DNA from: Sphingomonadaceae bacterium
Lineage (GTDB): Bacteria > Pseudomonadota > Alphaproteobacteria > Sphingomonadales > Sphingomonadaceae
Direction: 5' to 3'
Length of the DNA stretch: 35,230 nt
NCBI GenBank assembly: GCA_021300355.1
Contig: JAJTEF010000034.1
Location: 2,501 to 37,730 of the forward strand
Shown in pieces: positions 13,083 to 25,094 of this stretch. A program made the translations under genes and the position numbers. The notes under the pieces were generated by a model. It ran no database searches, was not told the DNA's origin, and saw only the letters and a list, made by a program, of their open reading frames with translations. The number at the start of each line of letters is the position of its first letter. The stretch's first letter is position 1.

Positions 13083-13808
13083 TTAGGCTGCGTCCTTCGC
13101 CGCCCGGCGTGCCGCCAATTCCTCCACGGAGCGAGCGCGCATGAACGGGTTGGTCGCGCGTTCCAGTGCAATCGTCGTGGGCACTGTTGCCTCGCCGCGT
13201 TCGCGCGCGGCGACAACATCCAAAACACGCTGCTGAAGCGCGGCATTGTCAGGCTCCACGGTCACCGCAAAGCGCGCGTTGCTTAACGTATATTCGTGCG
13301 CGCAATAGATGGCCGTATCATCGCCCAACGCCTCAAGCTTACGCATATTGTCGTACATCTGCGCAGCGGTCCCTTCGAACAAGCGGCCACAGCCCATCGC
13401 GAACAAGGTGTCGCCGACAAAAGCGACCTGCTCGGTTTCAAAATGATAAGCGATGTGCCCCGCCGTATGCGCGGGAACGTCCAGAACCATCGCCCGCACG
13501 CCACCCAGTTGCACGACGTCTCCGCCGCGGACCTGCACGTCAAGCGTAGAAATCCGTTCCGCCTCTGCCGCTGGTCCCGTGATGATGCAGCCCGTCGCCG
13601 CCTTAATCTCGGCATTGCCGCCGACATGATCGGGGTGCCAATGGGTATTCCAGATTTGCGTAATCTTCCATCCGCGCGCCTCTGCCGCCGCGAGCACCGG
13701 TTCTGCCACGGCAGGGTCGATCACGAGGGTCTCGCCACTTGATGCGTCATGCACCAGCCAGACATAATTGTCGGACAGGACCGGAACGCGGACAATTTCA
13801 ATCGCCAT
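13083..13808 (-). CDS. gloB: Hydroxyacylglutathione hydrolase (glyoxalase II)
   Basis: A metallo-beta-lactamase-fold hydrolase of 241 residues that cleaves S-lactoylglutathione to lactate and glutathione, the second step of methylglyoxal detoxification. The binuclear metal motif is H56-W-H58-P-D60-H61. Further ligands are in the HTAGHIAYH segment and in the Asp of FVGDTLFAMGCGRLFEG. A C-terminal glutathione-binding part (CAHEYTLSNARFA, then ERATNPFMR) is present. The start ATG overlaps by one base the stop of the upstream gloA (TAATG), pointing to translational coupling. Eleven extra upstream codons in frame lie inside gloA and are not used. Confidence 0.95.
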   Translation of the reverse strand: MAIEIVRVPVLSDNYVWLVHDASSGETLVIDPAVAEPVLAAAEARGWKITQIWNTHWHPDHVGGNAEIKAATGCIITGPAAEAERISTLDVQVRGGDVVQLGGVRAMVLDVPAHTAGHIAYHFETEQVAFVGDTLFAMGCGRLFEGTAAQMYDNMRKLEALGDDTAIYCAHEYTLSNARFAVTVEPDNAALQQRVLDVVAARERGEATVPTTIALERATNPFMRARSVEELAARRAAKDAA

Positions 13809-22849: not shown

Positions 22850-23875
22850 CTATGTATCAAACAATCCGTCCTGCGATCCTGCGGGCGGGTTGAGGCCAAG
22901 ATGCTTCCAACCAGGGGCGTTGAGGCAACGGCCACGCGCCGTGCGCGCGATAAGGCCGAGTTGCAGCAAATAAGGTTCAACGACATCCTCAATGGTGTCG
23001 CGCGGCTCAGACAGGCCAGCGGCCAGCGCTTCGACACCTACGGGCCCGCCGCGATAAATGTCGGCGATCATGTGCAGATATCGCCGGTCCATTGCGTCGA
23101 GGCCGAGAGCATCAACCTCCAACCGGTTGAGCGCGCTATCGGCGATTTTTGCGGTGACGACGGGCTCGCCTGCGACATTGGCAAAGTCGCGGACGCGGCG
23201 CAGCAAACGACCGGCGATCCGCGGCGTGCCACGTGCGCGCTTCGCAATCTCGTTCGCGCCATCGGGGGCAATGCCAAGGTCAAGCAAGCGTGCGGCGCGG
23301 GTTACCACCAGCTCAAGCTCGCTATGCGTGTAGAAATTGAGCCGCACCGGAATGCCAAAGCGGTCACGCAAGGGCGTGGTCAGCAAACCCTGCCGCGTGG
23401 TTGCACCGACCAGCGTAAACGCGGGCAAATCAATCCGCACGGACCGCGCCGATGGCCCTTCGCCAATCATGATATCCAGCGCACGGTCTTCCATCGCGGG
23501 GTAGAGGATTTCCTCAACCACGGGGCTGAGCCGGTGGATTTCGTCAATGAACAGGACGTCGCCATCTTCCAAATTGGTGAGCAACGCCGCCAGATCGCCC
23601 GATTTGGCGATGACCGGGCCCGATGTGGCACGGAAACCGACGCCCATTTCCTTGGCCACAATCTGCGCCAATGTCGTCTTGCCAAGCCCAGGCGGGCCAA
23701 AGAACAACACATGGTCCAACGGCTGCCCGCGACCCTTCGCCGCCTCAATAAACACGCGCAAATTGTCCCGCGCGGCCGCTTGCCCGATGAACTCGGCAAG
23801 CGTTTTGGGCCGCAGCGCGGCGTCAATATCTTCCGGCCGCTTGTCCGGCGTGGTGAGGCGGTCGTCGTCAGTCAT
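22850..23875 (-). CDS. ruvB: RuvB, Holliday junction branch-migration ATPase
   Basis: A AAA+ motor of 341 residues that drives branch migration with RuvA. Walker A is GPPGLGKT (60-67) and Walker B is VLFIDEIH (111-114). Sensor and arginine-finger regions are present ([18 protein letters not shown]), followed by the winged-helix C-terminal domain ([20 protein letters not shown]). Length is normal. It points away from ruvA across about 610 bp holding a plus-strand GIY-YIG gene with inverted repeats. No LexA box was found immediately upstream. The ybgC gene follows about 90 bp downstream. Confidence 0.97.
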
Positions 23876-24033
23876 AATGTTCGATACCGTCGCCCTTGAT
23901 GGTCACCCAAGGGTGCTTGCGCCCTTCCCATACCTAATAATGCGGCTGCGAAGTCCGTGTCTGCAAACGCGCTGGTGGGAATGGCGGAAAGCGGACCGCA
24001 GCGACAGGTGACGGCATGGGGGTTTGAATTCCT

Positions 24034-24423
24034 GTGAAACATTTTACCAAAATTTACGTCACCCTGAACTTGTTTCAGGGTCCATTTTGCAGCACTTTCC
24101 AGCGCGTGAGAGATGAAAAAACGCCTTGCGTATATATACTCGCGAGCAAGCATTATGGATCGCTGTACATTGGCGTCACGTCCGACCTGCTGAAGCGGCT
24201 TTCGCATCATCGCGGTGGTATGACGCCGGGACATGCTTCCAAATATGCCATTTACCGGCTGGTGCATTTTGAAGTTTTTGGCACGATGGAGACCGCGATT
24301 GCGCGCGAGAAGCAGCTGAAGAATTGGCACCGCGCTTGGAAGATTAACCTGATTAATGACGGGAATCCGCATTGGGTGGATCTGGCGGTGGGGTTGGGTT
24401 TGCCGCCGATAGCGCAGGAATAG
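24034..24423 (+). CDS. GIY-YIG nuclease-domain protein
   Basis: A small GIY-YIG endonuclease-like protein of the stand-alone COG2827/UPF0213 kind. The domain runs from about residue 31 to 110: PCVYILAS (GIY-like, V33-Y-I35), then SLYIGVTSDLLKRLSHHR (Y45-I-G47 and R55), and AREKQLKNW with E92 as the likely metal ligand, so the active site looks complete. The reading frame from ATG 24034 runs through the left inverted repeat (encoding VTLNLFQGP), a non-domain tail; GTG 24106, inside the repeats, may be the true start. The stop is 7 bp before the right repeat. It lies antisense to, and between, ruvA and ruvB, whose neighbours are otherwise all on the minus strand. Confidence 0.85.
   Translation: MKHFTKIYVTLNLFQGPFCSTFQRVRDEKTPCVYILASKHYGSLYIGVTSDLLKRLSHHRGGMTPGHASKYAIYRLVHFEVFGTMETAIAREKQLKNWHRAWKINLINDGNPHWVDLAVGLGLPPIAQE
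24057..24085 (+). repeat. Left 29-bp inverted repeat of the GIY-YIG unit
   Basis: Perfect inverted match to 24431-24459. The core CCCTGAACTTGTTTCAGGG is itself a hairpin: ACCCTGAA/TTCAGGGT, 8 bp, with a 5-nt loop. This REP-like shape is the left border of the unit carrying the GIY-YIG gene. Confidence 0.9.
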
Positions 24424-24430
24424 TTGCCCG

Positions 24431-24459
24431 ATGGACCCTGAAACAAGTTCAGGGTGACG
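24431..24459 (-). repeat. Right 29-bp inverted repeat of the GIY-YIG unit
   Basis: Exact reverse complement of 24057-24085; its own hairpin is at 24435-24455. It begins 7 bp after the GIY-YIG stop codon and ends 26 bp before the ruvA stop. No target-site duplication is evident outside the two repeats. Confidence 0.9.
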
Positions 24460-24485
24460 GAAAAAGGGGGCGATAGGGACGAGCC

Positions 24486-25094
24486 TCACCGCGAAGCCCG
24501 CTTCAATGCGAGCCGGACCAGTGCATCGAGCGTTGCGTCGGGGCCGAGTTCTTCGACCGCCTGCGCCACGGCATTTCCGGCCTCGCCAGGCTTGAAGCCC
24601 AGATTGGCAAGTGCGGACATCGCGTCTTGTGCATGGTTGCCGGCGGCTGCACCCGTGGCCATCAGTTTCGCTCCGCCGCCGATGCCGGCGAGCGCGCCGA
24701 CCTTGTCCTTCAATTCATTGACGATGCGGCTAGCCAACTTTGGTCCGACGCCGTTTGCCCGCGCCACCATAGCCGCGTCGCCGCTGCCGATGGCAAGCGC
24801 GAGGTCGGCGGGCTCGATGGCCGAAAGGATGGCCAAGCCAACCTTGCCGCCAACGCCTTGTACGCCCGTCAGCAACCGGAACCAGTCGCGTTCTTCGCGC
24901 GTGGCAAAGCCGATGAGGCGCATGTCATTTTCCGACACCTGCATTTCGGTGAATACGGTGGCAAAATCATCCGTCTTGCCCAAGGCGGCAAGCGTCCGCG
25001 CGCTCGCCTGCACCAGATAGCCGACGCCGTTGACGTCGATCACCAGATGGTCGACGCCCGTTTCATCAATGCGGCCATATAGCTTTGCAATCAT
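24486..25094 (-). CDS. ruvA: RuvA, Holliday junction-binding subunit
   Basis: A 202-residue protein that binds four-way junctions as a tetramer and loads RuvB. It has an N-terminal OB fold ([20 protein letters not shown]), two helix-hairpin-helix motifs ([17 protein letters not shown] and [21 protein letters not shown]), a flexible Gly/Ala linker at about 135-150, and domain III ([21 protein letters not shown]) for RuvB contact. A LexA box lies 44 bp upstream, so it probably starts its own SOS-induced transcript separate from yebC-ruvC. Confidence 0.97.

Follow-up and report, generated by a model that had tools for sequence, protein, structure and literature searches.

A stand-alone GIY-YIG nuclease gene framed by CGTC-tagged REPs between ruvA and ruvB: a candidate palindrome-enzyme system parallel to RAYT-REPIN

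Why should a small nuclease gene lie between two inverted palindromes at the junction of ruvA and ruvB, and what is the relationship between the enzyme and the repeats that enclose it? The locus belongs to a Sphingomonadaceae bacterium (GenBank assembly GCA_021300355.1) and was analyzed within a stretch of 35,230 nucleotides, hereafter the window (contig JAJTEF010000034.1, positions 2,501 to 37,730). A first-pass annotation, prepared from the letters of the window, described perfect 29-bp inverted arms, each containing an 8-bp hairpin, that enclose a GIY-YIG gene opposite in strand to ruvA and ruvB. The repeat search and folding bear out the former part of this description, and the Pfam matches the latter. 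The features of the locus are:

24057..24085, + strand: left arm, a CGTC-tagged REP by sequence, tag outward and tail toward the gene
24057-24060, tag; 24061-24068, stem; 24069-24073, loop CTTGT; 24074-24081, stem; 24082-24085, tail CCAT (parts of the left arm)
24431..24459, - strand: right arm, an inverted copy of this REP, with its tag facing outward
24106..24423, + strand: stand-alone small GIY-YIG nuclease gene, probable GTG start, 105 aa, Pfam PF01541 with E 5.7e-16
24034..24105, + strand: continuation of the GIY-YIG frame upstream of the likely start, across the left arm; probably outside the translated protein
24486..25094, - strand: ruvA, neighbor (Pfam RuvA_N, RuvA_C)
22850..23875, - strand: ruvB, neighbor (Pfam RuvB_N, RuvB_C)

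The repeat search identified a single inverted pair, 24053-24085 and 24431-24463, which spans 33 nt at 97% complementarity and includes 29 nt of perfect match. In both arms, the 8-bp stem, ACCCTGAA/TTCAGGGT, closes a CTTGT loop and is followed by a CCA tail; the arms fold at -7.1 and -7.5 kcal/mol, corresponding to z of -3.6 and -4.0 against shuffled sequences. At up to 3 mismatches, the 19-nt core is found in the window only in the two arms (0 in 100 shuffles), and a scan of the window for tagged hairpins with a stem of at least 7 bp returned the two arms and one unrelated match at 13215. The reading frame of the GIY-YIG gene is open from 24034 and passes through the left arm, where it reads VTLNLFQGP. 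The suspicion, voiced in the first-pass annotation, that the annotated start may be wrong is justified by the alignment with a homolog (L013, MRQERNPCVYIL), the ATG of which lines up with the GTG at 24106; this GTG is likely to be the start codon of a 105 aa protein (stop codon at 24421-24423), and the VTLNLFQGP stretch probably lies outside the protein.

A search of the complete source genome with the 19-nt core, a check put forward together with the first description of the locus, yielded 35 copies at up to 2 mismatches, dispersed as inverted doublets, compared to none for the reversed control pattern. The 22 gene-less doublets listed, from 20 fetched stretches, have offsets of 31-83 bp, versus 374 bp for the window pair; this list leaves out L163 and the place C56:15799, and one of the stretches, L169, shows a single copy. 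The doublets of the genome comprise three subtypes, distinguished by the inner flank; the AACTTG stem of the window arms recurs in subtype B, with TCTTACTT as the inner flank, and in subtype C, with ATAACA (loci L151-L170), and neither subtype is accompanied by a GIY-YIG gene of its own in the source genome. Apart from the window gene, this genome contains a single GIY-YIG match, located in a 658-codon frame that is presumably uvrC, whereas the Y1 transposase domain (PF01797) has no match there.

With their CGTC tag, 8-bp stem, CTTGT loop and CCA tail, and with the repetitive, head-to-head dimeric occurrence of their copies, the window arms are, on sequence criteria, CGTC-tagged REPs, a known super-family that was described in 2013 in five phyla and includes dRS3 of Neisseria as well as RPE-4 and RPE-6 of Rickettsia conorii (PMC3733652, available excerpts). 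CGTC REPs are described in Wolbachia as well. In the same excerpts, these repeats are characterized by the CGTC tag, a stem of 8-9 bp, a loop of 4-5 nt and the CCA tail, which the window arms fit, and by occurrence mostly as head-to-head dimers, with copies within genes, among them tRNA synthetase genes, which the copies in the source genome fit as well. The excerpted text of Di Nocera, De Gregorio and Rocco presents the CGTC REPs as lacking a dedicated transposase, with only fortuitous links to transposase genes, and poses what mobilizes them as an explicit open question (PMC3733652); the letters GIY are absent from that paper. In the open-licence literature searched, no paper that links GIY-YIG genes with CGTC REPs was found, and an earlier description elsewhere is possible. 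Among the matches listed in one search, the lone GIY-YIG paper deals with a fungal mitochondrial genome; a Moraxella paper, in the portion available, has a table that contains both a RAYT gene and one for a GIY-YIG protein, unlinked; the accessible part of the RepRanger paper (PMC12306157) contains nothing on an enzyme, and that of PMC5082802 mentions REPs and no endonuclease.

The framing of the GIY-YIG gene by the repeats extends far beyond the window. A homolog of the window protein is present in 105 of the 149 genomes of the family, and a bracketing inverted repeat (SW of at least 16) was detected at 85 of 108 testable loci (110 were fetched, a few being the same locus twice) compared to 3 of 578 shifted windows. 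In the wider sample of 202 unique loci, 198 encode proteins of 80 aa or more, and 171 of these have an inverted repeat with a score of at least 14. Tagged hairpins with a perfect stem occur on both sides of the gene at 127 of 200 loci, on one side at 52 and on neither at 21, and in 0 of 518 shifted windows, which are of fixed length and also cover coding DNA; because of this property of the shifted windows, other isolated ORFs from the same loci were used as an additional control, and only 1 of 59 is framed. The association of the palindromes with GIY-YIG genes that the initial description suggested is thus confirmed, and the converse that it had entertained, palindromes scattered at random with respect to these genes, clearly does not hold. 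The tag of the nearest hairpin faces outward on 248 of the 400 sides of these loci and inward on 69, the remaining 83 sides having no hairpin; of the 306 hairpins next to the 200 loci, 269 read CGTCA or TGTCA. When the GIY-YIG frames are extended to the stop codon, 26 of 64 are framed, given that several of them continue into the right arm; if the position of the hairpin is instead taken relative to where the homologous core ends, the count is 47 of 70.

Framing by tagged hairpins is also found at 13 of 24 loci that, going by the titles of their records, lie outside the sphingomonads. Among the named plasmid-collection records (12 of 33 matches were fetched, including Novosphingobium aromaticivorans, which is itself a sphingomonad), 8 of 12 are framed and one, from Aeromonas, is framed on one side; in the remaining three, from R. 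tumorigenes, Photobacterium and Planktothrix, there is no hairpin on either side of the GIY-YIG gene. The GIY-YIG gene in the record of N. gonorrhoeae, of the genus that harbors dRS3, has CGTC hairpins on both sides, but, unlike in the window unit, a distance of about 190-225 bp separates these arms from the homologous core.

The palindromes beside GIY-YIG genes fall into stem/loop classes that include AACTTG, GACTTG, GGCTTG, CCCGCG, CCTGCG, CAGCG and TGCGAG, as assigned by hand-made regular expressions applied to the left arm. For the 110 class-labeled loci out of 130 from the family search (68 genomes; the other 20 loci were left out), the nearest protein in another genome is accompanied by the same class in 94 cases. 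Shuffling of the classes within genomes gave 38.5 such cases on average and 66 at most, so that none of the 5000 trials reached 94; the respective values for free shuffles are 19.1 and 38. Among the genomes with more than one labeled locus, 23 of 25 hold more than one class. Because the agreement exceeds that in the within-genome shuffles, it is the clade of the protein rather than the host that predicts the class of the palindrome. Joint inheritance of the arms and the gene could, by linkage alone, produce this match in cis.

The comparison in trans addresses copies across the genome. Of the 31 genomes that encode the matching GIY-YIG subfamily, 28 contain more than two AACTTG-class copies, versus 31 of the 118 genomes without it (p 7e-11), and for the GGCTTG class the respective values are 10 of 18 and 10 of 131 (p 4e-6); the matching subfamily was defined at an E value of 1e-35, a threshold of our own choosing, and looser ones from 1e-18 to 1e-30 give the same direction for AACTTG. 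No association was detected when each class was compared with the subfamily of the other class (p 0.20 and 0.37). Contrasts within genera are 14 to 3 for the AACTTG class (p 0.013) and null, 6 to 5, for the GGCTTG class. Of the 44 genomes without any GIY-YIG match, five hold at least two AACTTG-class copies, with 22 and 23 copies in G070 and G136, respectively. In the genus of the window, the median is 28 copies in the 10 genomes with the unit between ruvA and ruvB versus 4 in the 19 without it (p 0.031, or 0.059 once the two arms are subtracted); presence was scored at ruvA-ruvB only, and four congeners without the unit at this site hold 39-100 copies. Mobilization of the repeats by a RAYT was considered as well and rejected, given that the source genome lacks the Y1 domain and that, in the family, this domain is found in 24 of 149 genomes versus 70 of 149 for the repeat; a weak association of AACTTG-class copies with Y1_Tnp genes remains (15 of 24 versus 48 of 125, p 0.041).

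The most economical reading of these observations is a trans-acting nuclease with its own population of palindromes, in parallel to RAYT-REPIN and with an unrelated enzyme; the GIY-YIG nuclease is a good candidate for the spreader of the CGTC-REP family. That the window unit is a gene-bearing member of such a RAYT-REPIN-like system, with the nuclease acting in trans, we consider fairly probable. The likeness to RAYT-REPIN, or the REPtron, includes the framing of an enzyme gene by its own class of repeats (PMC3116915 and PMC3733652, excerpts), the dispersal of gene-less inverted doublets over the genome, and the existence of several enzyme-repeat pairs per genome with largely vertical inheritance of the enzyme genes. 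The differences, as far as the excerpts of these papers go, are that RAYT-REPIN combines an HUH Y1 transposase with a GTAG tag, as opposed to GIY-YIG with a CGTC tag here, and that RAYTs are described as single-copy, whereas some genomes, such as G071, carry several copies of one GIY-YIG unit. Given that the framed gene encodes a GIY-YIG protein and that PF01797 is missing from the genome, the window unit falls outside RAYT-REPIN and may nevertheless work in a similar manner. The analogy with RAYT and REP under a different enzyme, as drawn in the first-pass annotation, thus stands with respect to the dispersed doublets, the framing, the match between palindrome class and protein clade, and the greater copy number alongside the matching gene; the accompanying notion of a recent mobile insertion does not.

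Under the proposed mechanism, an Slx1-type GIY-YIG nuclease would stand in for the HUH transposase. The small nuclease gene would be mostly fixed in place and vertically inherited, located in the spacer of one doublet, and its product would act in trans on the hairpins of its own class of CGTC palindromes, the gene-less doublets being the putative non-autonomous part of the system. Nicking or cutting of the hairpins would then drive the spread, replacement or upkeep of these short inverted doublets. We infer the binding and cleavage of the palindrome by the protein, as well as the bond that is cut; the spread itself could proceed via insertion into new sites or via homing-like conversion between doublets. 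A broader proposition, on which we are evenly divided, is that the enzymes missing for the CGTC REPs are GIY-YIG nucleases and that these constitute a second, independently evolved palindrome-enzyme system, which spans several phyla, operates by hairpin-cutting cut-and-convert as opposed to HUH strand transfer, and is tuned, clade by clade, to stem and loop. A class-matched, framed GIY-YIG gene provides the CGTC REPs with a named candidate enzyme and substrate. If the proposition is true, two unrelated classes of bacterial enzymes keep populations of palindromes, REP systems represent convergent colonization of genomes and not an offshoot of IS200/IS605, and a widespread family of small nucleases that is usually annotated by domain alone acquires a function.

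Traces of mobility and turnover come from relatives and from other doublets. On one chromosome of G071, a GGCTTG unit occurs in nine dispersed places: five copies contain the gene, which is frameshifted in one of them, and the other four have internal deletions, of either 137 or 47 bp. These copies are alike beyond the arms, for about 20-25 bp on the left and at least 40 bp on the right, so that the moved piece is larger than the arms; the tested flank has a weak match (67%) in the one other genome of that genus. The same copies (L271-L279) adjoin GCGGACAT / GTCCGC pieces that resemble another dispersed repeat. At least four unit copies were also found in G135, a 77% complete MAG.

In the source genome, a CGTC-REP doublet lies in frame within cysS (TIGR00435 above the cut-off; L158:164-1771, contig C40). 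At this site, the element or its remains are present in 17 of 21 aligned genomes, the source genome included, and missing in 4, and two quite different interiors are found between the same arms, as judged from 14 chosen genomes of the 21, with degenerate copies left out. This swap of the interior favors conversion as at least part of the spread. A second doublet of the window's genus is present in 2 of 10 aligned genomes.

The interior swap at cysS is also what would be expected if the doublets were moved by something else and the GIY-YIG genes were homing-type parasites that settle in the spacers, the repeat being their target rather than their product. GIY-YIG domains are indeed found in homing endonucleases (PMC1564403, excerpts), and the gene-bearing and gene-less doublets of the source genome share arms and polarity and differ in offset, as given above. 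By itself, however, such parasitism makes no prediction that the number of gene-less copies of a given class depends on the matching gene, and the gene has persisted for long at fixed sites, subject to purifying selection. We regard this explanation as unlikely, although it fares best among the alternatives to a trans-acting nuclease that spreads its own palindromes.

The features of the protein itself bear on another alternative. The framed protein is a minimal GIY-YIG domain in which the catalytic Tyr, Tyr, Arg and Glu (Y10, Y21, R31 and E68) are kept in about 99% of 199 proteins; no NCBIfam family is assigned to it. Its best sequence match among solved structures is 1zg2, the UPF0213 protein BH0048 (E 3.4e-4), and in the Foldseek comparison the Slx1 structure 6seh and 1zg2 rank as the first two, ahead of UvrC, with all E values above 0.001 for a model with mean pLDDT of 79. 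The prokaryotic Slx1-like stand-alone GIY-YIG proteins (UPF0213; 1zg2, 1ywl) likewise consist of a minimal GIY-YIG domain. We take COG2827/YhbQ to be the name for this group. Unlike what is seen for the window unit, the superfamily survey draws, in its available excerpts, no link between Slx1-like proteins and repeats (PMC1564403); the same survey characterizes Slx1 as a structure-specific nuclease, which fits a hairpin as the substrate. Comparisons with congeners yield dN/dS ratios of 0.05-0.19 for the GIY-YIG gene in 13 comparisons, of which about nine are distinct, four pairs of rows having identical values and probably representing the same loci; judging by these ratios, the gene is subject to purifying selection.

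UPF0213 and Slx1 proteins as the nearest neighbors in sequence and fold, the conserved synteny and the purifying selection are all compatible with a caretaker role, whereby the nuclease resolves the hairpins or cruciforms of the repeats, akin to Slx1-like repair, and is retained in repeat-rich genomes without any part in spreading. Such a role predicts the same correlation between the gene and the copy number, but it leaves unexplained both why a copy of its own palindrome class lies on either side of the gene and why the gene is amplified together with the arms; we deem it somewhat less likely still than parasitism in the spacers.

We now turn to the age of the window unit. The unit is present at the ruvA-ruvB junction in 10 of 30 congeners and lacking in 19, one contig ending too early, and in the wider sample it occupies this junction in 35 of the 202 unique loci. 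Given this shared position, the unit looks old and ancestral at ruvA-ruvB, with repeated loss. The view of the unit as a recent insertion that interrupts a normally contiguous gene pair is rejected on the basis of the comparison within the genus and the wider synteny; the comparison with relatives lacking the unit, proposed in the first-pass annotation, thus yields a gene that looks ancestral in this position and is nonetheless not found there in all congeners. No clean empty site of the gene-bearing unit was found, either at ruvA-ruvB or for the G071 flank tested: ruvA-ruvB junctions without the unit are shorter or hold other inserts. Among the AACTTG-class loci, 35 of 65 are not found at ruvA-ruvB and keep the class, which means that units of this class occupy other sites, too. 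It is very improbable that the hairpins are merely terminators or mRNA stabilizers around a small repair gene, with class sharing due to inheritance of the locus: conserved gene positions such as ruvA-ruvB and the frequent location of REPs near the 3' ends of ORFs (PMC3733652, excerpts) would agree with regulation, but one of the arms precedes the gene, framing is almost never seen for other isolated ORFs, the class persists at those 35 loci, and the arms belong to a dispersed class that is associated with the gene in trans.

Several minor observations pertain to the sites of the units. Positions 23876-24056 of the window, between ruvB and the left arm, resemble part of a longer Pfam-GFA gene in a congener (L141) and appear to be a remnant. 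In congeners without the unit (L136, L145, L146, L148 and L149), the ruvA-ruvB junction often contains other, unrelated inserts, and it may therefore be a tolerant site. A phage origin was considered and set aside, there being no match in the phage collection. In Azospirillum lipoferum 4B p3 (L329), a framed GIY-YIG gene splits the suf cluster between sufB and sufC. Finally, units are found in either direction relative to shared flanks (L187, L200, L203, L237 and L259; L188, L248 and L267), as if they had been inverted between their own arms at these sites.
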